Positions 514-36,634 of a stretch of 50,318 nt of DNA are shown one piece after another. The notes below the pieces were generated by a model. That model ran no database searches, was not told the origin of the DNA, and saw nothing but the letters and a program-made list of their open reading frames with translations. The stretch comes from a virus. Each line of letters begins with the position of its first letter. Position 1 is the stretch's first letter. The position numbers were made by a program, and so were the translations under genes. The stretch is from IMG/VR virus record IMGVR_UViG_3300046820_000571, positions 1 to 50,318 of that record, one strand, 5' to 3'.

Positions 514-1515
514 ATGGCTACATTAGCAGAAATTCGTGCAAAACTTCAAGAAGCACAATCAAAGTCCACCGGACAAACCACTTCAGGTGGTGACAACGCA
601 ATTTACCCACATTGGAACATGCAAGAAGGCAAGGAAGCGGTTATCCGTTTGCTGCCAGACGGCAACTCAGCCAATACATTTTTCTGGGTAGAACGTGCAA
701 TGATCAAATTGCCGTTCGCAGGTATTAAAGGTGAAGCAGATAGTCGTCCAGTTCAAGTGCAAGTTCCTTGCGTTGAAATGTACAACGACGGTTCAGTTTG
801 CCCAATCCTATCTGAAGTGCGTGGCTGGTTCAAGGACAAAGCACTAGAAGAAATGGGTCGTAAGTATTGGAAGAAGCGTTCATACATCTTCCAAGGCTTC
901 GTTGTCGAAGACCCAATTAAAGAAGATAAGATTCCTGAGAATCCAATTCGTAGATTTATCATTGGTCCTCAAATCTATCAAATTATCCGTTCAGCGTTGA
1001 TGGATCCAGAATTGGAAGAATTGCCAACAGACTTCCTGCGTGGTGTTGACTTCCGTATTGCTAAAACCAGCAAAGGCGGTTTTGCTGACTACTCTACTTC
1101 AAAGTGGAGCCGTCGTGAACGTGCCCTAAGCGAAGTTGAACAAGCAGCCTTGCAAACACATCAACTATACAACTTGAGTGACTTCCTTCCTAAGAAGCCA
1201 ACTGACGTTGAGTTGAAGGTTATGAAAGAAATGTTTGAAGCATCAGTTGATGGCGAACCATATGATATGGATCGTTGGGGTCAATACTTCAAACCAGCTG
1301 GCATGGGTCAAGCTACTGGCGATCCTAACAAAGCATCTACACCGCGTGTCAGTGCTCCGGTTCAGACTCCTGTTGCAGAAACAGCAGAAGAGGAAGCTCC
1401 TTGGGAAGCTCCGGCAGCAGTAGCTCCGGCAGCACCTGCTCCTTCGAGTTCCGGCACTTCCAGCAAAGCTCAAGATATTCTTGCAGCTATTAGAGCAAGA
1501 CAAAACGCATCTTAA
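514..1515 (+). CDS. 32: Single-stranded DNA-binding protein (T4 gp32 family)
   Basis: Coats single-stranded DNA during replication and recombination, and in T4 interacts with UvsX/UvsY and the polymerase. At 333 residues it is slightly longer than T4 gp32 (301). The N-terminal basic segment, an OB-fold core with aromatic/basic stretches (KYWKKRSYIFQGFV, KWSRRERALSEVEQ) and Cys86/Cys96 in the region of the T4 zinc site fit the family. The C-terminal tail (about 270-333) is Ala/Pro/Ser-rich with an acidic EEE patch, then a short conserved-looking end. The start has a strong AGGAGG site. In T4 this gene is translationally autoregulated; the repeated GGCATA leader would be the place to look for that here. 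Confidence 0.93.
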   Translation: MATLAEIRAKLQEAQSKSTGQTTSGGDNAIYPHWNMQEGKEAVIRLLPDGNSANTFFWVERAMIKLPFAGIKGEADSRPVQVQVPCVEMYNDGSVCPILSEVRGWFKDKALEEMGRKYWKKRSYIFQGFVVEDPIKEDKIPENPIRRFIIGPQIYQIIRSALMDPELEELPTDFLRGVDFRIAKTSKGGFADYSTSKWSRRERALSEVEQAALQTHQLYNLSDFLPKKPTDVELKVMKEMFEASVDGEPYDMDRWGQYFKPAGMGQATGDPNKASTPRVSAPVQTPVAETAEEEAPWEAPAAVAPAAPAPSSSGTSSKAQDILAAIRARQNAS

Positions 1516-1573: not shown

Positions 1574-2653
1574 ATGGCGAAAGCATTTGATATAAGCAAA
1601 TTTAGAAAGTCAATCACTAAATCTATCGATGGTTTAAGTATTGGCTTTAATGACCCAGTTGATTGGGTTAGTACAAACAACTATGCATTAAACTATTTGA
1701 TTAGCGGAGACTTTAAAAGAGGTATTCCTCTAGGCAAAGTAACGGTATTTGCAGGCGAATCCGGTGCAGGCAAAAGTTTTATCTGTTCAGGTAATCTAGT
1801 TGCAAATGCACAGAAGCAAGGCATTTTTCCTATCTTAGTCGATACAGAAAATGCGTTAGATGAAGCATGGCTACATGCTCTCGATGTTGACACTAGTCCA
1901 GACAAGTTGTTAAAACTTAATATGGCTATGATTGATGATGTAGCGAAGACTATTACAGAGTTTGTTACAGAATATAAAACAATGCCCGAAGATGAACGTC
2001 CCAAGGTACTGTTTGTTATTGACAGCTTAGGTATGTTGTTGACTCCAACAGATGTTAATCAGTTTCAAGCAGGTGATCTAAAGGGCGATATGGGTCGAAA
2101 GCCTAAGGCACTAACAGCGTTGGTTCGTAACTGTGTTAATATGTTTGGCAGCTTAAACATTGGATTAGTCGCAACTAATCATACATATGCTTCACAAGAT
2201 ATGTTTGATCCGGATGACAAGATCAGCGGCGGACAGGGCTTTATCTACGCAAGTTCTATTGTCGTAGCTATGCGCAAGTTGAAGTTGAAAGAAGACGAAG
2301 ACGGTAACAAGGTTTCAGAAGTTAACGGCATTCGTGCCGCTTGTAAGATTATGAAAACTCGTTACGCAAAGCCGTTTGAAAGTGTACAGGTTAAGATTCC
2401 TTATGAAACAGGTATGAATCCATATAGTGGACTAGTCGACTTGTTTGAAGCTAAAGGGTTGCTTAAGAAAGAAGGAAACAGTCTTGTGTACACAACTGCT
2501 GATGGAGAAATCATCAAACAGTTTCGTAAGGCCTGGGAAAGAAATGAGAACAACGGCTTAGATAAAGCAATGGAAGACATTTCTAAAAACGGTGAAAAAA
2601 CTGAATCAGTGATAACTAATAGTGTTGAACCTGAAACGGAGATTACAGAATGA
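1574..2653 (+). CDS. uvsX: UvsX recombinase (RecA/RAD51 superfamily)
   Basis: ATP-dependent strand-exchange protein for recombination-dependent replication and repair. Its 359 residues are close to T4 UvsX. Walker A GESGAGKS is at residues 61-68 and Walker B LFVIDS at 146-151, followed by the DNA-binding loop region with the GLVATNHTYASQ segment (RecA motif 4 area). An acidic C-terminal tail is present. It starts after AGGAAATAAT and overlaps the next gene by ATGA. Placed with gp32 and uvsY it forms the presynaptic filament set. Confidence 0.95.
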   Translation: MAKAFDISKFRKSITKSIDGLSIGFNDPVDWVSTNNYALNYLISGDFKRGIPLGKVTVFAGESGAGKSFICSGNLVANAQKQGIFPILVDTENALDEAWLHALDVDTSPDKLLKLNMAMIDDVAKTITEFVTEYKTMPEDERPKVLFVIDSLGMLLTPTDVNQFQAGDLKGDMGRKPKALTALVRNCVNMFGSLNIGLVATNHTYASQDMFDPDDKISGGQGFIYASSIVVAMRKLKLKEDEDGNKVSEVNGIRAACKIMKTRYAKPFESVQVKIPYETGMNPYSGLVDLFEAKGLLKKEGNSLVYTTADGEIIKQFRKAWERNENNGLDKAMEDISKNGEKTESVITNSVEPETEITE

Positions 2654-6248: not shown

Positions 6249-7005
6249 AATATCGTTAGAAGAGTCGTTAGTAAGAGGCTCTGGTGGAGCATGTACTACA
6301 AATATTTTAGACGATAAACCGTTAGTTGTTCGTGGAGTGACTAGCAAAAGTGAAATAGAACAATGTGTTGCTGCCGGAAAAGATTATTACTACATCGATA
6401 CCGGATACCTAGGAAACTTTCCTAGTGTTGGCAATCCGTCGGGCAAAAAGATCTGGCACAGAGTTGTTAAGAATGGATTACAACATCCAACTATCAAAGA
6501 CGTACCGTCAGATAGATGGAAACGACTAGTAAAGCAAGATCCTAGACTAGAGTGGGCAGGATGGAAGTCATTTAATAAAAAGATTCTTTTAGTGTTGCCA
6601 AATCCCAAAGCCTGTAGATTTTATAATATTGACTGTGATAAATGGATCGCCGAAACGATTGAAGCAATCTCTAAACATATCGATATACCCATAGAAATAC
6701 GAGTTAAGGGTTCCAGAAGTTTTAGAAATAAAGAATATACTATCTATGATGCTTTTGATAGTGGCGTTTATGCCACAGTATCATTTAACAGTATTGCTTC
6801 TTTAGAATCAGTATTATACGGAATCCCGGCGTTTGCATCTGTACCTTGTGCTGCAAGCCCATTGGTTGATTGCGACCTCAAGAACATAATAAATCTATAT
6901 AGACCAGATGAGCAGACTATATTAAATCAATGTAAGAATCTTGCATATGGTCAGTTTACACAAGAAGAAATACTCAACGGCACTGCATGGAGTTTATTAA
7001 AATGA
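6241..7005 (+). CDS. Capsule-transferase-like protein, paralogue 2
   Basis: 254 residues, overlapping paralogue 1 by eight bases and paralogue 3 by ATGA. It carries YYYIDTGYLGN, KIWHRVVKNGLQH, the donor-site-like FNSIASLESVLYGIPAFAS and the LAYGQFTQEEI end motif, so it is the closest relative of its upstream neighbour. The N-terminus is shorter and contains KPLVVRGVTSKSEIEQC. The two copies look like an old tandem duplication. Confidence 0.75.
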   Translation: MNEISLEESLVRGSGGACTTNILDDKPLVVRGVTSKSEIEQCVAAGKDYYYIDTGYLGNFPSVGNPSGKKIWHRVVKNGLQHPTIKDVPSDRWKRLVKQDPRLEWAGWKSFNKKILLVLPNPKACRFYNIDCDKWIAETIEAISKHIDIPIEIRVKGSRSFRNKEYTIYDAFDSGVYATVSFNSIASLESVLYGIPAFASVPCAASPLVDCDLKNIINLYRPDEQTILNQCKNLAYGQFTQEEILNGTAWSLLK

Positions 7006-8093
7006 AGTTACTGTTAAATGATAAAGAACTTACGTATTTCTTAATAAGTCAACTTGACCTTGTGGAAACATGCAAAGAAGTGTGGTACAGTGAAGAAAGT
7101 GTTGGACAGGTTCGTACCTATATCATGTACGAAAAAATGAAAAGAAAGTTTGACATTAAAAAGATGAGAGATAAGTTTAAATCTAAAATCAAAAGCGCCG
7201 TTGAAAGAGATTTAAAAGACTATCGTAAAAGAATCAATGCACACTTAGATCAAAAAAGAGATTTTTATTTTAATAAGATTCATAAAAATCTTGATTATTT
7301 CTTAATGAAACTAGGGGAAGAAAAAGTATTAGAGCAGTATAGGAATAGTCAAAAACAAAACTTTGTTAAAAGTGTAGGATTCAATTTATCTCCTACTGCT
7401 AAGATGATCAGAAGGAAAGATTTCACAAACTACTCTGAAGATTGTCTTATTAGAAATACTGTAGGAAACGAAGAACTGCTAGTATCAAAGATAGATAAAG
7501 GATATCCTTTTTGGTTTATTGACAGCGGATACACAAACTTTTTAGAGCCTAATAAAAAGTGGCATAGACTAGTTCACAATCACCTACACCACGGTAACAT
7601 TATCGATGCGCCAGTTGATAGATTAGGAAACTTTGCATCTTTTCCACACCAGTGGAGACACTCTGGAGAAAAGATATTGGTCATTGAACCTGGACCATTT
7701 GCTGCCAGCATATTTCATGTAGACATAAAAACATGGAGGTATAGTATTGAAGCTGAGATTAGACAGTACAGTGATAAGCCCATTGTCTTTAGAGAAAAAG
7801 TTAATAAAAAGACTAGAGAAAATCTATATAAACACCTGACAGACGAGGATTACTACTGCGTTGTTAACATTAATTCAAATGCTGCAACAGAATCTATTTG
7901 GGCAGGCGTGCCAGTGATTACATTAGATAGACATATCACAAATCCAGTGTCACGTAGTAAGATTTCAGACATAAACAATCTTTATAGACCGAATCTTGCC
8001 AACTGGTTGTGTATGTTAAGCTACAGTCAGTTTACTTTTGAAGAGTTAATAGACGGAACTGCTGGAAGATTGGTGAGGAAGTATCATGGATAA
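7002..8093 (+). CDS. Capsule-transferase-like protein, paralogue 3, with N-terminal extension
   Basis: 363 residues from the ATGA-overlapping start at 7002. Residues 1-150 are an extra Lys/Arg-rich, probably coiled-coil region (KMRDKFKSKIKSAVERDL and similar) not found in its sisters. The rest carries the shared signatures: FWFIDSGYTNF, KWHRLVHNHLHH, then INSNAATESIWAGVPVITL and LSYSQFTFEELIDGTAG. The extension may tether or oligomerise the enzyme, which is inference. Confidence 0.75.
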   Translation: MKLLLNDKELTYFLISQLDLVETCKEVWYSEESVGQVRTYIMYEKMKRKFDIKKMRDKFKSKIKSAVERDLKDYRKRINAHLDQKRDFYFNKIHKNLDYFLMKLGEEKVLEQYRNSQKQNFVKSVGFNLSPTAKMIRRKDFTNYSEDCLIRNTVGNEELLVSKIDKGYPFWFIDSGYTNFLEPNKKWHRLVHNHLHHGNIIDAPVDRLGNFASFPHQWRHSGEKILVIEPGPFAASIFHVDIKTWRYSIEAEIRQYSDKPIVFREKVNKKTRENLYKHLTDEDYYCVVNINSNAATESIWAGVPVITLDRHITNPVSRSKISDINNLYRPNLANWLCMLSYSQFTFEELIDGTAGRLVRKYHG

Positions 8094-9012
8094 GTTTACT
8101 GCTGTTGCATACTTCGGTGGGATTCCCCCAAATAACAATAATCCGGAAAAACCATTGATTTTATCTAACTTTTGTCAAGGTGTAACGGCATCAGGCGACA
8201 CTGCGATTGCACACAAGGGAATGAATGTTGTAGATTGTGATGTTGCACTGATACAGGGCTTTGTACATGACCACGGAAAAACATTGCCTCACTTGATGTT
8301 GAGGAAAAATGCAGTTGACCGCCAAAAAGCTAGAGGCAAACGTAGCCTTATTGTAGATAGCAATCTGTTTTTATATGCAGACAGTGGAAATACAAAAACA
8401 TATCTTCGTTACAGTTACGACGGTGTCTTTCCCACCACTGGTTTTTACTTCGACACAGACGTTGACCCAACTCGATGGCAAAAAATCAGTAACAACTTAG
8501 GAATATCTCTAAAACCCTGGAGGAATGAAGGCAATCATATTTTAATCTGCCTTCAGCGACACGGTGGTTGGAGTATGGGTGGTCTAAGTACACTAGAGTG
8601 GCTTGAAAGAACCATTGCACAGATAAGACAGCACTGTAAAAAGAGACCCATTGTTGTTAGAACACACCCCGGCGACAAAAAAATCAAACAGGTGTTAAGA
8701 ATCAATCATAAAAATGTCACAGTAAGTAAAAATGAAAAGTTAACTGACGATTTAGCAGGTGCTTGGGCAACTGTTGTCTATAACAGCAGTCCTAGTGTTG
8801 CTAGTATCATCGAAGGTGTGCCTGCATTTTTAACAGATCCGCAGCCTCAACACAGTCAGAGCTTTGGAGTTGCAAATACTGACTTATCTAAAATAGAAAA
8901 TCCAGATTTGCCGGATAGACAAGCCTGGATTGAACGTGTAGCTATGTGCCACTGGAGTTTTAACGAACTGAAGTCAGGTGAAGCGTGGCAGTTTTTTAGA
9001 AAATATATTTAA
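8086..9012 (+). CDS. Capsule-transferase-like protein, paralogue 4
   Basis: 308 residues. The N-terminal half is diverged. The second half is the clearest for function: RPIVVRTHPGDKK resembles the RPHP region of capsule/teichoic-type GT-B transferases, followed by YNSSPSVASIIEGVPAFLT and a CHWSFNELKSGEAW end motif. It overlaps paralogue 3 by eight bases and meets the convergent gene downstream tail to tail over four bases. Confidence 0.75.
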   Translation: MDKFTAVAYFGGIPPNNNNPEKPLILSNFCQGVTASGDTAIAHKGMNVVDCDVALIQGFVHDHGKTLPHLMLRKNAVDRQKARGKRSLIVDSNLFLYADSGNTKTYLRYSYDGVFPTTGFYFDTDVDPTRWQKISNNLGISLKPWRNEGNHILICLQRHGGWSMGGLSTLEWLERTIAQIRQHCKKRPIVVRTHPGDKKIKQVLRINHKNVTVSKNEKLTDDLAGAWATVVYNSSPSVASIIEGVPAFLTDPQPQHSQSFGVANTDLSKIENPDLPDRQAWIERVAMCHWSFNELKSGEAWQFFRKYI

Positions 9013-9821
9013 GAAAACTGTTTCCAGTAGGATTCTGTTCTCTTTACTAACAGATCTGTTCTCTTACTCTTTCCTAGGTCTTTACGACCACCTTTTAAGT
9101 GATCTAACCATGCTCCCCATTCGCTATTAATCAACGGATGGCCTTCACCTGTTACTAATCCGTCACTCCAGTTCCACTCATTTAGTGTCATAGTCTGTCG
9201 GACTGCATCAAATACAAAACTATCATGCCATTCGGCAAGTGTAAAAATACCTTGCTCTGCATTATCGTAATAATCTTGAAACTTTTTCAAGAATTTCTGA
9301 GTGCCTTCATTTTTTAAGCTCATAGAGTAAAGCCCACATTCTGTGAACTTACCTTTTCTTCCAAGGAAACACAAATCTTTTGTGGTAGGACAAAGTCTTT
9401 CGAGGTCTTTTCTGGAAATGGGACTATGACAAACAGTATCGGCGTCCATCCAGAGCAAAATATCACTGTCACACTCCTGAGCGCAGGCAAAAATACTGTA
9501 TACCTTGTGACTAAATCTTACAGCATGCCACTTGAATCCTTTACCAGAGTCTTTTCTTTTTGACCTAACAGGATCATCACTAACATCGCCGTTGGCCTTT
9601 GGCACTCCTTTCCATTTATTTTTGAAATCTACCAATGCTAAACTTTCTTTATGCAAATCTTTGACTATCAGATTCGGTGCTTTTTCCAAAACTTCACAAT
9701 CTTCGGCATAGACATACAAGGTAACATCAGTTGGCCAACTTTGTAAAAATGTTTGGATCATACGTTGACCATATTTTTCATACCCTTCTTTGTGAAAGGT
9801 TGTAACTACTGAGATTTTCAT
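9009..9821 (-). CDS. Probable glycosyltransferase, GT-A type
   Basis: 270 residues from the ATG at 9821, which overlaps the upstream gene by ATGA. It begins ISVVTTFHKEGYEKYG, typical of a nucleotide-sugar-binding strand, and has a DxD-type motif in LLWMDADTV (D126-D128). GEGHPLINSEWGAWLDHLKG near the end fits acceptor-side residues of such enzymes. Acceptor and donor are unknown. It belongs to the same surface-glycan cassette although encoded on the opposite strand. Confidence 0.7.
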   Translation of the reverse strand: MKISVVTTFHKEGYEKYGQRMIQTFLQSWPTDVTLYVYAEDCEVLEKAPNLIVKDLHKESLALVDFKNKWKGVPKANGDVSDDPVRSKRKDSGKGFKWHAVRFSHKVYSIFACAQECDSDILLWMDADTVCHSPISRKDLERLCPTTKDLCFLGRKGKFTECGLYSMSLKNEGTQKFLKKFQDYYDNAEQGIFTLAEWHDSFVFDAVRQTMTLNEWNWSDGLVTGEGHPLINSEWGAWLDHLKGGRKDLGKSKRTDLLVKRTESYWKQFS

Positions 9822-10225
9822 TTTTTTAACTTCCAAATTTGGTAATCTTTGTACAGCTCAACAATTTCGTAATGATTTCCGTTGAGCATTTTTGAGTATG
9901 ATCGATCAATAAACTCTCCCGAGCCTATAAAAATAGTTGGCCAGTATCTTGTCCATGCAGATTTTAGTTTTCCTATCTTATCTATTTTATCAGCGTCGAT
10001 AAAAATCACACTGATGTTAGGCAATATAGAAATATCGTCAAAATCTTCACGGTATACTACATTTTTTCGTTTGAAAGATCTGTCGCCGTCTGACAACACA
10101 AATACAGTATTAAAAATATCGCATAGACTTTCTAGGTTACCAAAGGCTGAACCTACAACAATACAGTTTTCTAATGCCCTAGAATTTTTTTCTAATCTTT
10201 TTGTAAATTTGCTCATCAAAATCAT
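9818..10225 (-). CDS. Unidentified protein of the sugar cassette
   Basis: 135 residues (132 if the internal Met at residue 4 is used). Alternating beta strands (CIVVGSAFGN, TVFVLSDG, SVIFIDADK, TIFIGSGEFIDR) suggest a small Rossmann-like fold, possibly nucleotide-sugar or SAM binding. It is coupled to the downstream glycosyltransferase by ATGA. I do not recognise a family. A late-type box lies 12 bases upstream. Confidence 0.7.
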   Translation of the reverse strand: MILMSKFTKRLEKNSRALENCIVVGSAFGNLESLCDIFNTVFVLSDGDRSFKRKNVVYREDFDDISILPNISVIFIDADKIDKIGKLKSAWTRYWPTIFIGSGEFIDRSYSKMLNGNHYEIVELYKDYQIWKLKK

Positions 10226-10237
10226 TAAATACTCTGA

Positions 10238-10245
10238 TATTTATA
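10238..10245 (-). promoter_or_regulatory. Late promoter box TATAAATA
   Basis: Minus-strand TATAAATA, identical to the T4 late promoter consensus, 12 bases before the 10225 start. It would drive the two minus-strand cassette genes late in infection. Confidence 0.6.
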
Positions 10246-10251
10246 AAACTT

Positions 10252-11103
10252 ATGCGCTTCAGATTATATAGAGAGTTTGGTGCTCTCAACAGTCCTCCTA
10301 TTTTTGATGCCTTCGAACAGGGAATCAAATCACTTGGTCACGAGTCAACTCACGATCCGGATGCCATACCAGTAATTTGGTCAGTTTTATGGCAAGGACG
10401 CATGAAATCCAATCAGACAATCTATGAAAAATGTAGATTGGCAGGTAAGCCTATAGTTATCATTGAGGTTGGAAACTTTCATCGAGGTCAAACTTGGAGG
10501 ATTGGAGTTAATCACATTAACAGTCTTGGATTATTTGGAAACGATGAAAACCTAGATTTAAATAGACCGGATTTTTTAGGGGTAAAACTAGAAAATTTCG
10601 TGAAAAATCGAAGACCGGAAATACTTGTGGCTGCACAGCATCAACACAGTTTGCAATGGGAAGGCCAGCCTACAATGGCTCAATGGACTACAAACATTGT
10701 CAATAACATTAGGGCACACACCGATAGAAACATCATTGTTAGACCACATCCAAGATCTCCATTTTCTGTGAATTTACCGGGGATAAAAGTCGAACGACCT
10801 CAACGTGTACAAAACACCTATGACGACTTCAATATCAACTACAACTTTCATTGCATCATAAATCACAACAGTGGTCCTGGCGTTCAAGCTGCTATAAATG
10901 GCGTTCCTGTGATCTGTGACAGGTCTAGTTTAGCCCATGAAATTACAGGAAAAATTCAAAATATTGAAGACATAACATTGCCCGATAGAGACGATTGGTT
11001 TTTAAAACTATGCCATACAGAATGGACAGTTAACGAGATACGTTCCGGAATTCCTCTCAAGAGATTAGAGAAATATCTTAGTCTATCATTGACTTCACAG
11101 TAA
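10252..11103 (+). CDS. Capsule-transferase-like protein, paralogue 5
   Basis: 283 residues. It keeps IIVRPHPRSP, matching the RxHP motif of GT-B capsule transferases, then IINHNSGPGVQAAINGVPVIC and the end motif CHTEWTVNEIRSGIPL shared with paralogue 4. It lacks the YIDTGY/WHR signature of paralogues 1-3 and has a different N-terminus. No Shine-Dalgarno sequence is visible before the ATG. Confidence 0.75.
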   Translation: MRFRLYREFGALNSPPIFDAFEQGIKSLGHESTHDPDAIPVIWSVLWQGRMKSNQTIYEKCRLAGKPIVIIEVGNFHRGQTWRIGVNHINSLGLFGNDENLDLNRPDFLGVKLENFVKNRRPEILVAAQHQHSLQWEGQPTMAQWTTNIVNNIRAHTDRNIIVRPHPRSPFSVNLPGIKVERPQRVQNTYDDFNINYNFHCIINHNSGPGVQAAINGVPVICDRSSLAHEITGKIQNIEDITLPDRDDWFLKLCHTEWTVNEIRSGIPLKRLEKYLSLSLTSQ

Positions 11104-11123: not shown

Positions 11124-12305
11124 ATGTATTATGAAGACATTTTCACCAAATTTTACGAAGGTATCTGTTCTCAGCCTTCAGTGTGGTCACATACTGATGG
11201 TAGTGGTGCTGCTTCTTTCTACTCGCTGATTATTTCAGGCAAGGCACTGACTTATAAACAAGGTCAGTACCTAATACGCATTTTAGAAAAATATAAACAG
11301 ATTAGCAAAGTAGCTGGGTTTGACTATACTGATAATCTAAAAACTGCCACATGGAAAGCGGTCTTTAGAGAAATCGATCTAACAAAGAAACTATCATGTC
11401 TAAAGGACGAAGAAGGAATTCTTTGGATTTGTTTCAAGTTTCCGTTCCAAACAAAAGAAATATTTGAAAAAGAGTTTGATAAAGATCTACGTAAACCAAA
11501 CGTTAGTAAATGGGACAATGACAAGAAGGTAAGACTGCTTTCTTTCAACGATTTCAACCTTATTAGAATACACGCATTTGCCATGGAACATCAAATAGAA
11601 ATCGACGAATCATTTATGTTTGCGATGAGTGAAGTTGAACAGGTTTGGCAATCGCAAAGCGACATTAGTCCTTACTGTAAAATCGAAGATGGAAAAGTAA
11701 TGCTGGTAAATGCCAATAGTTCAGCACAAGAATATTGGGATTTGGAGTTCAGTGACAACGTTGTTAACGATCTCCTTACAGCCAAGCATATGGGATTTAA
11801 ACTTGATCTAGGTCGAAATCCTGAATCAGTTATTGAACAACTAGCTGTAACCACAGACTCAAATTTTTACATTGTTGACCACACAGACGTGTTCAAAATC
11901 TATAAAGAAATCAAAGGAAAAGTTGCGGTTCTGCTGGATAGAAATAACGAAAGCATCGACTGGATTAAATCCTTTATTAAGAATGCCAACGATAACGGCA
12001 TCCCTAACTCTGAAATAAGAGTCTGCTTTAGGTCCAATAATAACGATTCTCCTAATATTAATCAATGGATCAAAGACGAAGGTCTCGGCGGTCCTGTCGA
12101 AGGAGGAAAAATGCTAGTGTTCCAACACCAACCACCTAAGTGGTTGTTTTCCTCTAACGAACATGTTAAACTTATTATTACGAATTTCGTTCATCCAGCG
12201 CCTAGTTCTAGAACGCAAGACTGGATGACAAGCCACCCTTGTGTACTATATATGGACAAGGTAAAGGCTTCGACACTTAGGAATCAACATATTGTCAACC
12301 TGTAA
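11124..12305 (+). CDS. Conserved-looking protein next to uvsW, unknown function
   Basis: 393 residues. The N-terminal region has ALTYKQGQYLIRILEKYK, and the C-terminal half looks like repeated alpha/beta strands (KVAVLLDRNNESIDWIKSF, KMLVFQHQPPKWLF, VKLIITNFVHP) reminiscent of a helicase-type fold. No Walker A or B motif is present. It overlaps the uvsW start by 14 bases, so it may be a partner of UvsW or a degenerate relative of a helicase; both are guesses. Confidence 0.75.
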   Translation: MYYEDIFTKFYEGICSQPSVWSHTDGSGAASFYSLIISGKALTYKQGQYLIRILEKYKQISKVAGFDYTDNLKTATWKAVFREIDLTKKLSCLKDEEGILWICFKFPFQTKEIFEKEFDKDLRKPNVSKWDNDKKVRLLSFNDFNLIRIHAFAMEHQIEIDESFMFAMSEVEQVWQSQSDISPYCKIEDGKVMLVNANSSAQEYWDLEFSDNVVNDLLTAKHMGFKLDLGRNPESVIEQLAVTTDSNFYIVDHTDVFKIYKEIKGKVAVLLDRNNESIDWIKSFIKNANDNGIPNSEIRVCFRSNNNDSPNINQWIKDEGLGGPVEGGKMLVFQHQPPKWLFSSNEHVKLIITNFVHPAPSSRTQDWMTSHPCVLYMDKVKASTLRNQHIVNL

Positions 12306-13779
12306 ACTTATTATTAAAGATGAAGTAAACATAAAACTAGACGGATTAGCAGTCGAATCAAGGCGCAAGATAGCCAACAAGCTCAAGTATGACTTGCCTT
12401 ATGCTCGTCATATGCCTGCTTACAAGTTAGGTAGATGGGATGGCACTAAGAGCTACTTTGGTATCGGAGGCAACGGATATCTTGCGCATCTAGATATCAT
12501 ATTACCCATTGTTGAAAGTGAAGGTTATGAGATTGAGGTAGAAGACCATCGATTTGCTCATAACTTTAAGTTTGTGCCTGTAACAGAAAGCTATTGGGCA
12601 GACAAGGGCAAGACATGGCCCAAGGGACATCCAGAAGCAGGTAAGCCTATTGTTCTACGTGACTATCAATATGATGTTGTTAACAAGTTTCTAGAAAATC
12701 CTCAAGCACTGCAAGAGGTTGCCACAGGGGCAGGCAAGACTATCACCACTGCCACTTTAAGTCATTTATGCGAGCCTTACGGGCGCACAATGGTTATTGT
12801 TCCTAACAAGAGTCTTGTAGTTCAAACCGAAGAAGACTATCGAAATCTAGGTTTAGATGTTGGGGTATACTTTGGTGACAGAAAAGAATTGAATAAGACT
12901 CACACTATCTGCACTTGGCAAAGTCTTAATGTGCTTGATAAAAACAGTTACAACGAAGATGCATTGTCATTGGCAGAGTTTACCGAAGGCGTTGCTGCTA
13001 TTATTGTTGATGAAGTACATCAAGCAAAAGCGGAAGTCTTAACAAAGTTACTTACACAGAACTTTAAGAACTGTGCTATTCGTTGGGGTCTTACTGGAAC
13101 TGTGCCTAAAGAAGCATGGGAGTTTCAGGGAATCTTGGCCAGTATCGGTCCTGTTATTAATCAAGTATCTGCAAATGATCTACAGGAAAAAGGTGTGTTG
13201 TCAAACCTACACATTAACATTTTACAGACTACAGATGTACAGGTGTTTAGAAGCTACGCAGAAGAAAATAGTTTCCTTGTAACTGATCCTCACCGAATGG
13301 CATGGATGTCATCCAAGATTAAAGAATTGTCCCTAACAGGTAATACATTAGTGTTAGTAAACAGGATCGAGACTGGTAACATTATTGTAAAAGAACTCTC
13401 GACATTATTTGGCACTATTAAAGACGGTAAACCGGATGTTGCATTTATTAACGGTAGTGTAAAACTTGACGACAGAAAAGAAGAATATGATGAAATACGT
13501 ACAGCCAATAACAAGATTATTGTGGCGACTTATGGTGTGGCCGCTGTGGGGATTAATATTCCTAGGATTTTTAATCTGGTTCTTGTGGAGCCCGGTAAGA
13601 GCTTTGTCCGAGTTATACAATCTATTGGGCGTGGTATTAGAAAAGCAGAAGACAAAGACCATGTCGAAATCTGGGACATAACATCAATGTGCAAATATGC
13701 CAAACGACATTTGACAGAGCGAAAGAAATATTATAAGGATGCAAAATATCCTTTCTCAATAACCAAGGTAAACATATGA
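12292..13779 (+). CDS. uvsW: UvsW-type superfamily 2 DNA helicase
   Basis: Remodels branched DNA and R-loops; in T4 it switches off origin-dependent initiation and helps fork regression. 495 residues. Walker A is ATGAGKT at 144-150, the DEAH-type box is DEVH at 240-243, motif III is LTGTVPK, and motif VI appears as QSIGRGIRK. The N-terminal region (YKLGRWDGTKSYF) matches the UvsW DNA-binding domain. No ATG is usable near the front; the start appears to be TTG at 12292 with AGGA about ten bases upstream. Confidence 0.93.
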   Translation: MSTCKLIIKDEVNIKLDGLAVESRRKIANKLKYDLPYARHMPAYKLGRWDGTKSYFGIGGNGYLAHLDIILPIVESEGYEIEVEDHRFAHNFKFVPVTESYWADKGKTWPKGHPEAGKPIVLRDYQYDVVNKFLENPQALQEVATGAGKTITTATLSHLCEPYGRTMVIVPNKSLVVQTEEDYRNLGLDVGVYFGDRKELNKTHTICTWQSLNVLDKNSYNEDALSLAEFTEGVAAIIVDEVHQAKAEVLTKLLTQNFKNCAIRWGLTGTVPKEAWEFQGILASIGPVINQVSANDLQEKGVLSNLHINILQTTDVQVFRSYAEENSFLVTDPHRMAWMSSKIKELSLTGNTLVLVNRIETGNIIVKELSTLFGTIKDGKPDVAFINGSVKLDDRKEEYDEIRTANNKIIVATYGVAAVGINIPRIFNLVLVEPGKSFVRVIQSIGRGIRKAEDKDHVEIWDITSMCKYAKRHLTERKKYYKDAKYPFSITKVNI

Positions 13780-16700: not shown

Positions 16701-16968
16701 ACCAGGTGTAAAATACATATATGAGCGTCATGACGGAACAGTATATGCTAGAGAGTTTGGTGCAGATTCAAATACAAGAGTAGCCGTTGGGTGGGATTGG
16801 GAACCTGAAGATAATCCTTCAAGAGTTAGAGGAGCCTCAAGAGAATCTATGTTAGAAAATCAGTTATGGTATCAAATTAGAACAAAAGCAAAAGACAATC
16901 CTGCTTTACAAGCTGCATTAGATCGTGCTAAAATGTTATATTACTTGAGTAAAGAAGATGGCCAATAA
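16687..16968 (+). CDS. Conserved phage protein, unknown function
   Basis: 93 residues, overlapping the epimerase by 14 bases and the next gene by 11. An N-terminal beta segment (KPGVKYIYERHDGTVYAREFG) with GWDWEPED is followed by a helical C-terminus (LENQLWYQIRTKAK). It resembles small proteins of T4-like aquatic phages; no function is assigned. Confidence 0.75.
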   Translation: MGQLKPGVKYIYERHDGTVYAREFGADSNTRVAVGWDWEPEDNPSRVRGASRESMLENQLWYQIRTKAKDNPALQAALDRAKMLYYLSKEDGQ

Positions 16969-17434
16969 GCACGTAGACCTTTTTAAAGATATTATACCTT
17001 CTGTAGATATGGGTATAATGGGATTATGGGATGCAGTCGATGAGGATGCACAGAAAGAAATAAAAAATGATCTGTGGAATCTCACTAGATATATCAGTAA
17101 TGTAAAGACCAACAATAGAGAATTACAAGAACATTTTCTGTTAACAGTAAACGAGTTTTATAATAAAAACTGGGCATCTATACAAAAGCATCCTAAACTG
17201 CAATGGATGACTTTGTGTCTATGTGCGCATGAAAGTAAGAAAACATACTTTCACGAATACATACCATTAAAGACAAAGAAAGATAAAAAAACAGAGTTCT
17301 TGGCAAACCTATTTCCATTAATGAAAAGAGCAGATCTTGAAACACTTGCAGCAATCACTACAACTGAAGAAATCAAACAACATTGTCGAGACCTTGGCTG
17401 GGATAAAAAAGAAATCAATGGAATTAAGTTATAA
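16958..17434 (+). CDS. Helical phage protein in the replication-associated cluster
   Basis: 158 residues, mainly helical. Notable segments are NLTRYISNVKTNNRELQEHF, a Trp-containing KHPKLQWMTLCLCAHE and a C-terminal KQHCRDLGWDKKEINGIKL. Size and the Lys-rich middle loosely recall the small clamp-loader subunit gp62, but I cannot line it up with T4 gp62 and do not assign it. It overlaps both neighbours, so it is likely co-translated. Confidence 0.75.
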   Translation: MANKHVDLFKDIIPSVDMGIMGLWDAVDEDAQKEIKNDLWNLTRYISNVKTNNRELQEHFLLTVNEFYNKNWASIQKHPKLQWMTLCLCAHESKKTYFHEYIPLKTKKDKKTEFLANLFPLMKRADLETLAAITTTEEIKQHCRDLGWDKKEINGIKL

Positions 17435-18101
17435 ATGTGAACACTGCGGGAAACTGTTTGCCAAAGAAAAAACTTTGGTAGTTCATATTTGTGAGCAAAA
17501 ACGTAGGCATCTAAGCAAAGGTGAGAAGCATGTACAGATGGGACTAATGACCTATCAGCGTTTTTACGAGTTAACACAAAAATCTACAAAGCCTAAAACC
17601 TTTGAGGAGTTTGCATCTAGTCCTTATTACACAGCATTTGTAAAGTTTGGTAGTTTTATGGCTAATACCTCTCCTATCTATCCAGAGAGGTTTATTGATT
17701 TTGTGATCAAGAGTGGTGTTAAACTAGATCACTGGTGTCGAGATGAGCTATATGATCAATACATAAGCGAACTGATTAAGATAGAACCAGCCGACGGTGC
17801 AATACAGAGAACCATACAGACGATGATAGATTGGGGTGAAAAGAATAATGCTCAGTGGGAGCATTATTTTGCCTATGTTAATCTCAATAGAGTAACACAC
17901 GATATCAAAGAAGGTCTGATCAGTCCTTGGATACTGTTAAATACCAAGTCTGGAAAGGAGATGCTCAAGAATATGAATGATGAGCAACTGGCTATTGTTG
18001 GCCCGGTTATTGATCCTCAGTTTTGGTTAAGACGTTTCAAAGCACTGCCTGCAGACCTTGCGTTAGTAAAAGATGTCGTCAAGGAGGCGAAGATACTGTA
18101 A
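17418..18101 (+). CDS. Zinc-finger-containing phage protein
   Basis: 227 residues from the ATG at 17418. The N-terminus holds a C2H2-like finger, CEHCGKLFAKEKTLVVH followed by further Cys and His, a plausible nucleic-acid-binding element. The remainder is helical with many aromatic residues and no catalytic motif. It overlaps the upstream gene by 17 bases. A DNA- or RNA-binding role within the replication cluster is inferred. Confidence 0.8.
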   Translation: MELSYKCEHCGKLFAKEKTLVVHICEQKRRHLSKGEKHVQMGLMTYQRFYELTQKSTKPKTFEEFASSPYYTAFVKFGSFMANTSPIYPERFIDFVIKSGVKLDHWCRDELYDQYISELIKIEPADGAIQRTIQTMIDWGEKNNAQWEHYFAYVNLNRVTHDIKEGLISPWILLNTKSGKEMLKNMNDEQLAIVGPVIDPQFWLRRFKALPADLALVKDVVKEAKIL

Positions 18102-18322
18102 TGTCAAAAAAAACAAACGATCACATAGAAGAAGAGTTGGCTGAAAACGAAGAGTTTATTTCGAGAGATGATGTCGACATACAGGTAGTTGTCAGCGACG
18201 ATGCTCCGGAAGTCTATGTGAAGTTTAGTGGATTTGATAATATGGAAGATGCCGAAGAGTATGCAGAGTTTTTAGCAAATACATTACCGTTGTTGCTGTT
18301 CGAGAGCACAAAAATACAATGA
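18101..18322 (+). CDS. Small acidic protein
   Basis: 73 residues from the ATG at 18101, which overlaps the previous stop (TAATG). Very acidic N-terminal half (HIEEELAENEEFISRDDVD) and a short alpha/beta C-terminal half ending LLLFESTKIQ. AAGGAGG lies 13 bases upstream. Unknown function. Confidence 0.75.
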   Translation: MSKKTNDHIEEELAENEEFISRDDVDIQVVVSDDAPEVYVKFSGFDNMEDAEEYAEFLANTLPLLLFESTKIQ

Positions 18323-18501
18323 AGGAAAATCGAACACTATTAGATGGAACGGAAGTTCCTAATCTGGAAAAAGCAGTTACCTTAAAGGTCTATACTAAAT
18401 GTCCTGAAAAGTATATGCTAACAGATATGCAAACTGGTGAAAAATATATAGGACATGAGGATCCAGAAAAAGGTCCTAGTCATTGGAAAAAGATTAACTA
18501 A
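18319..18501 (+). CDS. Small protein, unknown
   Basis: 60 residues with an ATGA overlap upstream and a TAATG overlap with the PolIII-like gene downstream. A central beta-rich stretch (VTLKVYTKCPEKYMLTDMQT) and a Tyr-Ile-Gly-His-Glu end are visible. Co-translation with the gene downstream is likely; function unknown. Confidence 0.7.
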   Translation: MKENRTLLDGTEVPNLEKAVTLKVYTKCPEKYMLTDMQTGEKYIGHEDPEKGPSHWKKIN

Positions 18502-19067
18502 TGCCCGATATAGATATTGACTTTACTGACAGAGACCAAGCTCTGAAGATGTTTAACCATGTTGTCGCCAGCCGACTAGAAGATCAAAAGTTAGTAAAGC
18601 ATAACACTGGTGTTTATCTACATGAAGCACCGGTTGATGCTAGAACCGGCGTGTGCTCTATCACATACGATCAAGCCGAGGAGCTTGGTTATTTTAAAAT
18701 TGATTTTTTAAATGTTGGAATATACAAAGGTGTTGCTGACGAAGAACATTTAGTTAGACTAATGAACAAAGAACCTTTGTGGGAACTTTTATCTAACGAT
18801 GAGTTTAACAGTTTACTATTTCATGTAAACGGCCATGGATCTATTTTGAGAAAAATGCAACCAAAATCTATTGAGCAGTTGGCGGCGGTATTAGCAATGA
18901 TTCGCCCTGCAAAAAAATATTTGATTGGAAAAGATTGGACAACTGTCCTTGATGAGGTTTGGATTAAACCCAGTGACGGTGAGTACTATTTTAAGAAGAG
19001 TCACGCAATCGCTTATGCTACTGCGGTGGTTGTGCAGATGAACTTAATCTGCGAACAACTAGATTAA
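18501..19067 (+). CDS. Miniature DNA polymerase III alpha (C-family)-like protein
   Basis: 188 residues. Several hallmark motifs of bacterial DnaE/PolC appear in the right order: PDIDIDF at residues 2-8 (the catalytic Asp pair is D401/D403 in E. coli DnaE), KHNTGVYLHEAP at 33-44 (KHAGGVVIAP in DnaE), GYFKIDFLNVGI at 63-74 with D68 at the third catalytic Asp (D555), LFHVNGHGSILRKMQP ... LAAVLAMIRP at 106-136 (LFQLES.GM ... ALFRPGP), and FKKSHAIAYATA at 164-175 (NKSHSAAYAL). The PHP, thumb, beta-binding, helix-hairpin-helix, OB and tau-binding parts are absent, and the spacing between the first two motifs shrinks from over 100 residues to about 25. Activity is not established. It lies beside the primase/helicase region. 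Confidence 0.8.
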   Translation: MPDIDIDFTDRDQALKMFNHVVASRLEDQKLVKHNTGVYLHEAPVDARTGVCSITYDQAEELGYFKIDFLNVGIYKGVADEEHLVRLMNKEPLWELLSNDEFNSLLFHVNGHGSILRKMQPKSIEQLAAVLAMIRPAKKYLIGKDWTTVLDEVWIKPSDGEYYFKKSHAIAYATAVVVQMNLICEQLD

Positions 19068-19435
19068 CTAGGTTTGCGTAACAGCGTAATAGACTTACGT
19101 TTGATTCTTTTAACAATAATATCATTTAAACTAGTACACGGTCCAAAGACAAGTTTTACATCTTTTGTACTAAAGTTTTTGATAGCATATCTAAATTCTA
19201 GAATCTCTTTAGAAAGAAAAATATTAATAGGTATTTGCCTATTGGATTCCCACCACCAGGCTTCGCCTAGTTCTAAAAATCTCTGTTTTTCAACGTCTGT
19301 TTTTATAGCTGCATAGTCGTAAAGGCTAGTGATCTGTTGATCCTGATTTATAATAATTCCAACATATTCCTGATCAACGTGATTTATCACACTTATGAAT
19401 GGAAAGTTTTGTTGTAGATTTTCTGTTATTCTCAT
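19064..19435 (-). CDS. Conserved phage protein, unknown function
   Basis: 123 residues, convergent with the PolIII-like gene (stops overlap by four bases). Beta-rich: FISVINHVDQEYVGIIINQD, ELGEAWWWESNRQIPINIF, KDVKLVFGPC. It sits head to head with the likely virion gene at 19463, with which it may share control. No motif is recognised. Confidence 0.75.
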   Translation of the reverse strand: MRITENLQQNFPFISVINHVDQEYVGIIINQDQQITSLYDYAAIKTDVEKQRFLELGEAWWWESNRQIPINIFLSKEILEFRYAIKNFSTKDVKLVFGPCTSLNDIIVKRIKRKSITLLRKPS

Positions 19436-19462: not shown

Positions 19463-20302
19463 ATGCAACTTAGTCCAGTTTATTTATATTCGAACAAGAT
19501 AGACGTGTTTACAAATGCGCTGGATTCCTGGACAGGAGGATATCGCAAAGTGTATCAAAGAAACTTAAAAATCTTTAGAGGTGTAGATAATCGCATCGAT
19601 CTACAGCTTCGTAACGGTGATCAAAAAGCAATAGAGATATTTTCTGATCAATATGTAATATTCAATCTCATTAGCAGAGATACACAAGAACTTATTCTAG
19701 AAAAACAAGGTCTGAGCACTGATGACAGTAGTTCTAGCAGAGGCAGAGTTTATTTCACTCTTACAGAATCTGATCTATTAGATCTCGAACCCGGATTTTA
19801 TCAATATTCCATCTATGTGGAAACGCGAGTAGCAATCAACGCAGAAGAGTATACAGTTTCATCCAAAACTCCTCTCTATGTTGATAGTCAGTTTGGCGTG
19901 GTAGGAACTATTGAAATCAGCGGAGATATAAGTGGTAGACTACAAGATAGTACTGTAGTTGATGCATTTTCTAGACATGTGGATGTAACTATCTCTAGTC
20001 CTAATGAACAGTATTTCAGCAGTATTATAGATGCAAATCCAACTACTTCTACATCATCGAGTCTACATACATTTCAGTTTTATTCTACAGCCTATGCCGG
20101 CACTGTAGTTATACAGGGAAATATTCAACCGGGATCTAATCCAGATACATGGGTCGATATCCCAGATGGTGCGTTTGAAAATGGTGCAAACAACTTTAAT
20201 CCAACTACCGAACCATATAAAAATATTATAGGTAAATGGAACTGGTTTAGAATTAAACATATCCCAACCGCAGGAACTATTGACAAAGTATTATACAGGT
20301 AA
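19463..20302 (+). CDS. Probable virion structural protein
   Basis: 279 residues, mostly beta strand and low in Lys/Cys, with a long C-terminal domain containing GTVVIQGNIQPGSNPDTWVD and KWNWFRIKHIP, features common in phage fibre or neck-associated proteins. The upstream late-type box fits a structural role. Function is inferred from composition and expression signal, not from a recognised family. Confidence 0.7.
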   Translation: MQLSPVYLYSNKIDVFTNALDSWTGGYRKVYQRNLKIFRGVDNRIDLQLRNGDQKAIEIFSDQYVIFNLISRDTQELILEKQGLSTDDSSSSRGRVYFTLTESDLLDLEPGFYQYSIYVETRVAINAEEYTVSSKTPLYVDSQFGVVGTIEISGDISGRLQDSTVVDAFSRHVDVTISSPNEQYFSSIIDANPTTSTSSSLHTFQFYSTAYAGTVVIQGNIQPGSNPDTWVDIPDGAFENGANNFNPTTEPYKNIIGKWNWFRIKHIPTAGTIDKVLYR

Positions 20303-20314: not shown

Positions 20315-21334
20315 ATGACCTTGGTTATAGACGTTTTCAATTCATTAATACCTCCACGGACTAAAAAAACACCTAGCGGTTGGCTCAGTTTTAATGCACC
20401 TTGCTGTCACAATCGCGGACATTCAATAGATGATAGACAGCGAGGCGGTGTAGTATACAAAGATGGTTTAGTCTATCACTGTTTTAACTGTGGGTTTTCA
20501 ACAGGATGGAAACCAGGTAATCCAATAAGTCAAAAGTTAAGGTCATTGGTTAGGTGGATGGGCGGATCAGAAGACGATGTAAATCGTATGATCTTCGAAG
20601 CCTTAAAAACAGAATCTTCCGAACATAAAATAACTGAGTTTATTCCTAGTCTATTGTTTACTGAAAAAGATTTACCAGATGGTGCAATGCCAATCAGTGA
20701 GTGGATCAATAGTTCAGAGTTAGATGGTTATGCAGATAAACTTGCCCCAGTTATTGCCTATCTATACGATCGAGGCTTTGATGCGTTAGACAATAACTTT
20801 TACTGGACTCCAACCAGCGGCATGTCTGATAGAGTTATTATTCCATTTAGATTCAATGGAAAGATTGTAGGCAACACTGCTAGAAAGACTAGAGCAGGTA
20901 AACCTAAATATGTTTCCGATCAACCTCCTAACTATGTGTTTAACTTTGACAGTCAAACCTATTCTCAAAAATATGTGTTTGTAACTGAAGGTCCTTTCGA
21001 TGCACTAAGCATTGGTGCTGTAGGATTACTGCATAACGAAATATCAGAACAACAGGCAAGGATTATCAACAGTTTAGGAATCAAACCTATTGTCATTCCC
21101 GATCAGGATTTAGCTGGATTAGCAGTGATTGACAAGGCCGTTGAGCTAGGATGGGCAGTGGCATTTCCTACATGGGAAGATGACGTAAAAGATCCTGCCG
21201 ATGCCGTGAGCCGTTACGGTAAACTTTTTGTTGTTGTAGACGCGATTAAAACAGCGCAAGAAGGTATAATAAAGATTACAGTTGCTAGAAATCAACTAGA
21301 AGCAAAACTAAAAAGACTAGAGAAAGATGATTAA
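20315..21334 (+). CDS. 61: DNA primase (T4 gp61 family)
   Basis: Synthesises RNA primers for lagging-strand replication with gp41. 339 residues, as in T4 (342). The N-terminal zinc-binding domain has CCHNRGH (30-36) and CFNCG (56-60). The Toprim catalytic core has VTEGPFDALS with Glu225 and Asp229, and the metal-binding DxD is PDQD (263-265). It overlaps the helicase gene by eight bases. A sigma-70 promoter points straight at the start codon. Confidence 0.93.
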   Translation: MTLVIDVFNSLIPPRTKKTPSGWLSFNAPCCHNRGHSIDDRQRGGVVYKDGLVYHCFNCGFSTGWKPGNPISQKLRSLVRWMGGSEDDVNRMIFEALKTESSEHKITEFIPSLLFTEKDLPDGAMPISEWINSSELDGYADKLAPVIAYLYDRGFDALDNNFYWTPTSGMSDRVIIPFRFNGKIVGNTARKTRAGKPKYVSDQPPNYVFNFDSQTYSQKYVFVTEGPFDALSIGAVGLLHNEISEQQARIINSLGIKPIVIPDQDLAGLAVIDKAVELGWAVAFPTWEDDVKDPADAVSRYGKLFVVVDAIKTAQEGIIKITVARNQLEAKLKRLEKDD

Positions 21335-22772
21335 AGATTACGGATACGAAGTACAGAAACTATATTTAGAACTGATGATGGCAGACGCAGAAGTGTTTGT
21401 CCGCTGTCAAGGCATTTTCGATCATACATTATTCGATCGCAAACTACAGGATGCCGCTGAGTTCATTAATGAATACGCCAAGGGCTACAATGTATTGCCA
21501 GACTTTGAAATGGTTAATGCAAGCTGTAGAACTGACCTTAAGAAGCCAGAAGATGTCAAAGAAGGACACATGGATTGGCTTTTAGATGAGTTTGAAAACT
21601 TTACTCGTCACAAGGCACTAGAACGTGCAATCATTAAATCCAGTGATCTATTAGAACAGAAGAACTACGGTGAAGTAGAAGCATTAATCAAAGAAGCTGT
21701 TCAGATTGGTCTTGCTCGTGATATGGGTACAGACTACTTTGCTGATCCCAGAGGTCGATTATTGGGACTCAAAGACAAGAACGGTCAAGTGTCCACTGGT
21801 TGGACTACAATGGATAAGAAGTTATTCGGCGGATTCAACAGAGGTGAACTGAATATCTTTGCGGGTGGCTCGGGTGCAGGTAAGTCGTTATTCTTAGCTA
21901 ACTTAGGTGTTAACTTTGCACTTGCAGGATTGAATGTTGTTTATCTGACACTGGAACTTTCGGAAGCACTAGTGTCTATGCGCATTGACTCTATGACTAC
22001 CGGAGTTTCAACAAGAGAGATTTTTAAAGATCTTGACGATGTTGAAATGAAAGTTAAGATGATCGGTAAGAAAGCCGGCATGTTACAGATCAAGTACATG
22101 CCGTCGGGCAAGACAACCAACGATATTCGTGCATATCTAAAAGAGTATGAAATCAAATGCGGTAAGAAAGTAGACGTACTATTGGTTGACTATCTAGACT
22201 TGTTGATGCCCATTGGTAAGAAGATTTCAGCAGAGAACTTGTTTATCAAGGACAAGTATGTGTCAGAAGAACTTCGTAATCTAGCAATGGAAAAGAAATG
22301 TGTGTTTGTCACAGCGGCACAGTTGAACCGTGGTGCCGTTGAAGAAGTCGAGTTCGACCACAGTCATATTTCGGGTGGACTATCTAAGATTCAAACAGCA
22401 GATAATGTGTTTGGTATCTTTACCAGTCGTGCTATGCGTGAGCATGGCAAGTATCAACTACAGCTTATGAAGACTCGTAGTTCAAGCGGTGTTGGACAAA
22501 AGATTGATCTAGAGTTCAACATTGAAACATTGAAGATCACAGACTTGCCAGAAGATCAGCAAGAAGGTAACGGTGCTATCAATCGTGGTACCAGCAGTGT
22601 TATTGAAAAGCTAAAGAGAAAGACCAGTATGCAAACAGACAGCGATACTGGTGAAATACTAGAAAATCCTACAGAAGGTAAATCAGTAGGTAAAGTTAGA
22701 GGTCATGTAGAATCTACTAAACTACGTGAGTTGATTAACAATCTTGGCAATAATGAAGACGACACGTATTAA
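21327..22772 (+). CDS. 41: Replicative DNA helicase (T4 gp41, DnaB-like)
   Basis: Hexameric 5' to 3' helicase that partners gp61. 481 residues. The RecA-like domain has Walker A GGSGAGKS at 180-187, the DnaB-type VDVLLVDYLDLL (Walker B) at about 282-293, and the helicase motif SAENLFIKDKYVSEELRNLA. The ISGGLSKIQTADNV segment corresponds to DnaB motif 4. The N-terminal 140 residues are the helical collar. Confidence 0.94.
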   Translation: MIKDYGYEVQKLYLELMMADAEVFVRCQGIFDHTLFDRKLQDAAEFINEYAKGYNVLPDFEMVNASCRTDLKKPEDVKEGHMDWLLDEFENFTRHKALERAIIKSSDLLEQKNYGEVEALIKEAVQIGLARDMGTDYFADPRGRLLGLKDKNGQVSTGWTTMDKKLFGGFNRGELNIFAGGSGAGKSLFLANLGVNFALAGLNVVYLTLELSEALVSMRIDSMTTGVSTREIFKDLDDVEMKVKMIGKKAGMLQIKYMPSGKTTNDIRAYLKEYEIKCGKKVDVLLVDYLDLLMPIGKKISAENLFIKDKYVSEELRNLAMEKKCVFVTAAQLNRGAVEEVEFDHSHISGGLSKIQTADNVFGIFTSRAMREHGKYQLQLMKTRSSSGVGQKIDLEFNIETLKITDLPEDQQEGNGAINRGTSSVIEKLKRKTSMQTDSDTGEILENPTEGKSVGKVRGHVESTKLRELINNLGNNEDDTY

Positions 22773-22992: not shown

Positions 22993-23703
22993 ATGCGCCT
23001 AAGAGAATTATACGAACGTTCACCTCTAATAACTGTTAATCGCCGTCTTAACCCTAAGATCTGGAGCGAGGGTACACTTGACCCCCAGGTCTCGAAAAAA
23101 CTCATGCAAATAGCAGAAGCATTTGTAGAGTTTGTGGGTATTGACCTAGATATTGTTGATTTGACCATTACAGGATCAAATGCCAACTATACTTGGACTG
23201 CACACAGTGATCTAGATCTACACGTTATTGTTGCCGGCATTCCGTCGGACAACGATAGAGAATTATTCAATGCCAAAAAGACACTCTGGGGCGATCAGCA
23301 CGACATAACGGTAAAGGGCATGCCGGTAGAATGCTATGTACAGGGTCAGGATGAAAAACACCACAGCACGGGTGTTTATAGCCTGTTAAACAGCAAGTGG
23401 ATTATTGAACCTAAAAAGATCAAGCCCCGTGTAGACGACAGTGCTGTAGAAGCTAAAAAAGACAGTGTACTGCATGATATTGAACTGGCACTGTTAAGTA
23501 AGGATCTAGATAAGATTCGCACAGTCAAAGATAAAATCACTAAAATGCGCAAAGCAGGACTTGAACGAGCCGGAGAGTGGTCAACAGAAAACCTAGTTTT
23601 CAAAATAATTCGAAACCTAGGTCTTATTGATCAGATTGCGGAAAAAATCCGCGAGCTAGAAGATCAAGAGCTGAGCCTAGAACAGGCCCAGCAACAGAGT
23701 TAA
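22993..23703 (+). CDS. Nucleotidyltransferase (Pol beta superfamily fold)
   Basis: 236 residues. The catalytic signature is GSNANYTWTAHSDLDLHVIV (GS at 61-62, DxD at 73-75), as in minimal nucleotidyltransferases. The C-terminal third is charged and helical. Related proteins occur in aquatic T4-like phages (recalled, not checked). The target, tRNA, protein or small molecule, is unknown. The N-terminus MRLRELYE resembles a short leader also seen at 45066. It ends tail to tail with the membrane protein downstream, sharing TTAA. Confidence 0.8.
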   Translation: MRLRELYERSPLITVNRRLNPKIWSEGTLDPQVSKKLMQIAEAFVEFVGIDLDIVDLTITGSNANYTWTAHSDLDLHVIVAGIPSDNDRELFNAKKTLWGDQHDITVKGMPVECYVQGQDEKHHSTGVYSLLNSKWIIEPKKIKPRVDDSAVEAKKDSVLHDIELALLSKDLDKIRTVKDKITKMRKAGLERAGEWSTENLVFKIIRNLGLIDQIAEKIRELEDQELSLEQAQQQS

Positions 23704-34835: not shown

Positions 34836-35399
34836 TTACTTTTCTCCTATAATCATATAACGATTAAAGGCCCAATCGTCATATTGAAATCTTCGGATGC
34901 CACTGAACAGTGTAGAACTTAGTGGCCAGGCTTGCTCAAACTCTTCTAAGGACTTATACTCCGCGACATGATCTTCATGCGGCATGTCATTGCCCTGTAG
35001 AACTATCAGTGTGCCTTTGGGTATGCGATCATACCACGCACGGCTGTCTATATGCTCCACACTGCTGTTGATAACGATGTCTGGACAGTCTGTATAGTCT
35101 AGCTCGTTTGCGTCTGCTGTGTGTGCTTTAAACTCCCAATGCCGCCATACCCAAAGATTATTAATCTTATCAGCGAGGGGTTCGCACTCGGGATCAAGGT
35201 CAAAGGAGCGAACTTTGGAGATGGGAATATGACCCCGAGTGCGAAGAATAAAGTTAGTGACACCATACCAGCCAGCAAGGATCCAAATGTTCCATCCTCC
35301 TGGCCGTGTTAGATTGTTGAAGAGGATAACTTCTTCGAGCTTAGATACTAGCCAAGTCTTTGATTCAACTTGGCTAGAACTAAATGCATCAAAGTTCAA
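34836..35399 (-). CDS. Class I methyltransferase-like protein
   Basis: 187 residues. WNIWILAGWYGVTNFILRTR occupies the place of the SAM-binding loop, with FDLDPECEPLADKIN as the acidic strand 2, and DIVINSSVEHID as the motif IV region. The glycine pattern is unusual (AGWYG), so the assignment is good for fold, less for activity. Overlaps the VWA gene by ATGA. Confidence 0.7.
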   Translation of the reverse strand: MNFDAFSSSQVESKTWLVSKLEEVILFNNLTRPGGWNIWILAGWYGVTNFILRTRGHIPISKVRSFDLDPECEPLADKINNLWVWRHWEFKAHTADANELDYTDCPDIVINSSVEHIDSRAWYDRIPKGTLIVLQGNDMPHEDHVAEYKSLEEFEQAWPLSSTLFSGIRRFQYDDWAFNRYMIIGEK

Positions 35400-36607: not shown

Positions 36608-36634
36608 AGTTCGCTTCCTTGTTAAGATGATCTT

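Follow-up and report, generated by a model that had tools for sequence, protein, structure and literature searches.

The 188-aa protein encoded on the plus strand at positions 18501–19067 of the window (the whole 50,318-nucleotide stretch of viral DNA analysed, IMG/VR record IMGVR_UViG_3300046820_000571) is probably the C-terminal half of a split minimal C-family (DnaE-type) polymerase core, the two halves of which would pair as one enzyme. In sequence, predicted fold and invariant residues it corresponds to the DnaE palm from E. coli residue 399 onward, followed by shortened fingers. The palm back (D3/D5/D7, K66 and D68) and the reduced fingers (R135-P136, H168) are both represented, as supported by profile matches, conservation, a structural model and Foldseek. 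The family is not new, because it was described by Iyer et al. in 2021 and is present as a PHROG family; the window protein is a further member of it. These authors recognised both pieces as a previously overlooked split minimal PolIII alpha, encoded by group 2.2 jumbo phages alongside a B-family polymerase, and suggested cooperation with the latter enzyme or participation in repair (PMC7824862). The authors of the 2017 phage CBB paper had described a truncated PolIII alpha of 172 aa (PMC5259590), and those of the Atu_ph07 paper a PolIII alpha subunit, gp316 (PMC6102473); both proteins (gp316 in record NC_042013) are the N half of the pair. A literature search found no paper testing the activity of the split PolIII alpha. 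The present analysis contributes the position of the break in DnaE coordinates, the set of invariant residues (steric gate among them), the almost complete pairing of the halves, selection estimates, two fold models and two conserved gene neighbourhoods.

All five signature blocks of DnaE listed in the earlier note are found in the 188-aa ORF in the same order, and each was mapped onto E. coli DnaE, the reference for residue numbers. Motif anchors were used for the mapping, since both ends were misplaced when the C half was aligned globally to DnaE with hhalign. MPDIDIDF (18501..18524, +), the first metal-binding strand, corresponds to E. coli 399–406 (D401, D403, D405), and the initial Met of the protein is equivalent to E. 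coli M399. KHNTGV (18597..18614, +) corresponds to KHAGGV 510–515. GYFKIDFL (18687..18710, +) corresponds to GLVKFDFL 550–557 and includes K66 (K553) and the third metal-binding Asp, D68 (D555). The LFHVNGHG..MQP..RP block is equivalent to about 608–640 of E. coli DnaE. FKKSHAIAYA (18990..19019, +), the fingers helix, corresponds to FNKSHSAAYA 756–765, where H168 occupies the position of H760, the steric gate of E. coli DnaE (PMC8485763). The three catalytic Asp counterparts proposed in the earlier note (D3, D5 and D68 for D401, D403 and D555) agree with this mapping and are invariant in 79 sequences. D7 is equivalent to D405, an Asp absolutely conserved in the DnaE groups, unlike PolC (PMC3919608).

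The protein lacks most of a replicase. The PHP, thumb, helix-hairpin-helix (HhH) and clamp-binding parts are all absent from the 188 residues, and the OB part, also listed as missing by the earlier note, has no place there either, as both the length and the alignment to DnaE indicate. The spacing between the DxD strand and KHNTGV, estimated previously as shrunk from more than 100 residues to about 25, is 24 residues, compared with 103 in E. coli DnaE. This interval is the insertion site of the thumb in the E. coli DnaE structure, and the thumb region between MPDIDIDF and KHNTGV is missing according to the mapping onto E. coli. The fingers are cut down as well, since the RP motif and FKKSH are separated by about 27 residues instead of about 114. 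The GRGS motif of a complete single-chain DnaE palm is not found in the window protein.

Profile searches place the protein in the C family. The strongest match is phrog_11778 ("DNA polymerase", 197 aa; E 8.2e-66), in which residues 3–186 align to profile positions 8–194. Matches were also obtained to phrog_405, a 1190-aa phage DNA polymerase profile (E 1.3e-10), and to TIGR00594 polc (E 1.6e-4). The Pfam match to PF07733 that had been proposed as a check stayed below the cut-off (E 0.57, profile 101–114 only), because the window protein holds only the back of that domain; PF17657 was also below the cut-off (E 0.012). The predicted resemblance to DnaE is borne out by the AlphaFold model of the C half, built from 51 window and metagenome sequences, with a mean pLDDT of 91.6. 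A Foldseek search of the PDB with this model gave DnaE or PolC entries at each of the first 15 ranks and no other credible match. Predicted strands 4–8 and 67–71 contain or adjoin D3/D5 and D68, and from this strand assignment together with the structural match to DnaE the three Asp residues would be clustered. A chance motif match is ruled out by the phrog_11778 score and the exclusively C-family Foldseek matches.

Conservation extends far beyond the window. Eleven residues (D3, D5, D7, H34, G37, K66, D68, R135, P136, H168 and Y172) are invariant among 79 distinct C-half sequences with identity down to about 40%. The C half is present in 65 phage records, including RaK2, 121Q, PBECO4, CBB, GAP32, PA5oct, Paride, Atu_ph07, Phosso, SCTP-2 and XacN1, and more than 560 relatives occur in viral contigs among the matches listed. 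No plasmid-borne copies were found. Identity of the window protein to the C halves of isolates is 38–54%, and to metagenomic ones, among the matches listed, up to 78%. The median dN/dS for closer pairs is about 0.12 for the C half and 0.11 for the N half. On sequence evidence, the C-half gene is functional and under constraint.

The N half is encoded in the genomes of relatives as a separate protein of about 170 aa (phrog_11127) with the GRGS nucleotide-binding motif, which in DnaE lies a short distance ahead of the DxD strand. In phage CBB it is gp328, a 172-aa protein that carries GLGRGSSVSS and ends in ..NEFLKW. The two halves are gp373 and gp411 in phage RaK2, and 0087 and 0017 in Paride. 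The N half matches PF07733 above the cut-off (E 2e-8, 34.5 bits) at profile positions 20–95, and the C half starts at profile position 100/101. A profile of 42 N halves aligns to E. coli DnaE 320–393. As the N half ends at about 393 and the C half starts at 399 in E. coli coordinates, the halves abut without overlap. Judging from these alignments, the cut divides a single domain after the nucleotide-binding motif and before the first metal-binding strand, and the break point is the same in all C- and N-half sequences compared. In a set of 283 sequences, no N+C fusion ORF turned up, nor any locus in which the two halves lie close to each other. The AlphaFold model of the N half has a pLDDT of 90.9, and its first eight Foldseek matches are all DnaE chains.

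The halves travel together. Every one of the nine isolate genomes checked encodes both, at distances of 15 to about 220 kb. Comparison of the record lists for the two halves places the N half in at least 58 of 60 phage records listed for the C half; the remaining two records are 109 and 141 kb long. A search with the N-half profile detected it in 8 of 11 metagenomic contigs of 195–365 kb; it was not found in three unclosed contigs (199, 280 and 262 kb), all of which carry the C half. B-family polymerase (PolB) is encoded in the same 9/9 isolate genomes, and the C-family pair would therefore be an extra polymerase, not the replicase. Within the window, neither the N half nor gp43/PolB was found, as expected for a 50-kb fragment. 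An obligate DnaQ-like exonuclease partner was ruled out by a search in which PF00929 was matched in only 8 of 19 genomes.

The C-half gene stands in a conserved replication neighbourhood. Neighbours were counted in loci long enough to tell. The DNA primase (gp61-like; 20315..21334, +) and the DnaB-type replicative helicase (gp41-like; 21327..22772, +) downstream recur in 130/131 and 118/122 loci, respectively, and the earlier description of a T4-type phage with these two genes beside the polymerase fragment holds. The translational coupling proposed on the upstream side is also found, since the stop codon of a 60-aa ORF (18319..18501, +; it matches the end of phrog_4098 and has a homologue in 31/166 loci) overlaps the C-half start in TAATG at 18499–18503. 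Farther upstream are a conserved gene for a protein with a weak C2H2-like zinc finger (phrog_11058; 17337..18101, +; 157/160 loci), the real start of which is likely at about 17418, and a conserved 158-aa neighbour (phrog_11758; 16958..17434, +; 150/157 loci). A 279-aa neighbour annotated as a virion structural protein (phrog_14467; 19463..20302, +; 134/144 loci) precedes the primase. The same strand of the window also encodes a UvsW-type helicase (12292..13779), a UvsX/RecA-like recombinase (1574..2653, PF00154) and a gp32-like single-strand-binding protein (514..1515, PF08804).

Directly behind the C half lies a convergent 123-aa gene (phrog_11637; 19064..19435, −), present in 152/153 loci and always on the opposite strand; the two stop codons overlap by 4 bp. 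Across very distant phages it is kept as a lone opposite-strand gene, tail-to-tail with the C half, with strict conservation of its orientation.

In most isolates checked, the C-half gene adjoins the primase and helicase and the N-half gene adjoins the clamp loader; XacN1 is an exception, with no primase or helicase annotated next to the C half. The N half is located upstream of a gp44-type clamp loader, with 2–7 genes between them, in CBB, Atu_ph07, Paride, RaK2 and Phosso (in Phosso the gene at the clamp-loader position is annotated as AAA-ATPase). PhoH is next in the N-half neighbourhood of Atu_ph07, Paride and Phosso. Behind the N half, within a few genes, comes a gene annotated as head morphogenesis or GroES co-chaperonin in four of five distant phages, and then the clamp loader in all five.

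The likeliest mechanism would be that of a two-subunit, low-processivity polymerase assisting gp43. Binding of the N and C proteins could rebuild one nucleotidyltransferase-fold palm, in which GRGS of the N half would hold the dNTP triphosphate. The C half would supply the three metal-binding Asp residues, template contacts and the fingers, with the steric-gate His for sugar discrimination. Such a dimer is expected to be distributive and to add only short stretches of DNA, because the thumb, PHP, helix-hairpin-helix, OB and clamp-binding parts are missing. Less firmly, the pair might help gp43 at the phage fork by primer extension before gp43 takes over, or by gap filling. A role at the fork is favoured because one gene lies beside those for primase and helicase, the other near that for the clamp loader. 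In Bacillus, DnaE extends primers for PolC and hands off to it. By analogy, the split-active-site C-family polymerase could be dedicated to primer extension or handoff within a B-family (T4-type) replisome, a tentative proposal; if true, a bacterial-type and a eukaryote-type polymerase would share one fork.

Several other readings were weighed against the polymerase. The minimal nucleotidyltransferase considered in the earlier note stands in so far as the protein is a fragment of the PolIII alpha catalytic core; a complete, stand-alone nucleotidyltransferase is ruled out, since the front of the palm with GRGS is missing and is encoded as a separate, co-occurring protein. The two halves together could still form a nucleotidyltransferase other than a template-directed DNA polymerase, modifying for example a protein, RNA or a nucleotide. 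Such an enzyme would likewise keep the metal ligands and GRGS, nucleotidyltransferase folds serve many reactions (PMC11646218), the thumb and clamp-binding parts are absent, and the phages already possess a B-family polymerase. However, neither the RP motif of the fingers nor the steric-gate His varies, features that an enzyme working without a template would need less, and the genes sit in replication clusters; this reading is considered unlikely.

A catalytically silent accessory, with a structural or regulatory role in the phage replisome or serving as a decoy for the host clamp, tau or epsilon, would agree with the extreme truncation and with the co-localisation of the genes with primase, helicase and clamp loader, but it is improbable, as even very distant phages show no variation in the metal ligands, K66, GRGS and H168. 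DnaE binds the clamp, tau and epsilon through its C-terminal region and PHP. These are the very parts that are missing, which makes a host decoy or mimic unlikely, and the poison subunit or host-polymerase mimic suggested in the earlier note does not explain a conserved two-gene split with complete conservation of the active site, steric gate included. Decay of a captured host dnaE would account for the short length, and the phage CBB paper described its N half as truncated (PMC5259590). Yet this reading deserves hardly any credence and is refuted by the selection and conservation data: the dN/dS ratio, the number of viral relatives, the conserved gene order and the uniform break point all stand against a remnant.

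Compared with the described split minimal PolIII alpha (phrog_11778 and phrog_11127), the window protein belongs to the same family, which in isolate relatives shows the same division into an NTP-binding N half and a metal- and template-binding C half and the same B-family polymerase background; nothing differs in kind, and the window phage is uncultured. With E. coli DnaE (1160 aa) it has in common the palm motifs, the three metal-binding Asp residues, the D405 equivalent, the steric-gate His and the RP motif of the fingers, whereas the 188-aa chain is devoid of PHP, the GRGS part, thumb, most of the fingers, HhH, clamp motif and OB, and its function should need a second protein. The full-length DnaE proteins of group 3.2 jumbo phages (e.g., phage G; phrog_405) are likewise phage-encoded members of the C family but, unlike the window protein, are single long chains with PHP and serve as the main replicase (PMC7824862). 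An analogue in design, without sequence kinship, is African swine fever virus Pol X: a viral nucleotidyltransferase-fold polymerase consisting of palm and fingers (PMC11646218), which differs in being a single-chain repair polymerase of the X family.

If active, the pair would be the smallest C-family polymerase known to us, with an active site split between two subunits, and a manageable system in which to study the core chemistry of bacterial replicases; a phage replication system would then combine two unrelated polymerase families. Given the break point, the co-occurrence of the halves and the kept steric gate, two small proteins of about 170–190 aa would suffice for a direct test of the 2021 proposal.

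Other features of the window were observed. The gene right after the helicase (22993–23703, +) has a weak match to NTP_transf_2 (PF01909, E 0.0011, below the cut-off), and its product shows GSNANYTWTAHSDLDLHV, a typical nucleotidyltransferase GS..DxD motif; it may be another nucleotidyltransferase-like protein, unrelated to the C half, next to the replication genes. From the translations only, a block between uvsX and uvsW (4016–11103) resembles sugar-nucleotide/cytidylyltransferase and glycosyltransferase-type proteins, several of which (about 5409–11103) are apparent paralogues of one another. The translations likewise place most genes at about 24–44 kb on the minus strand, starting from about 23.7 kb; in this region an AAA ATPase (36725–37810) adjoins a VWA/metallopeptidase-like protein (35396–36643). 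Three adjacent tRNA genes, Met(cat), Arg(tct) and Leu(taa), are located at 42391–42643 (−).
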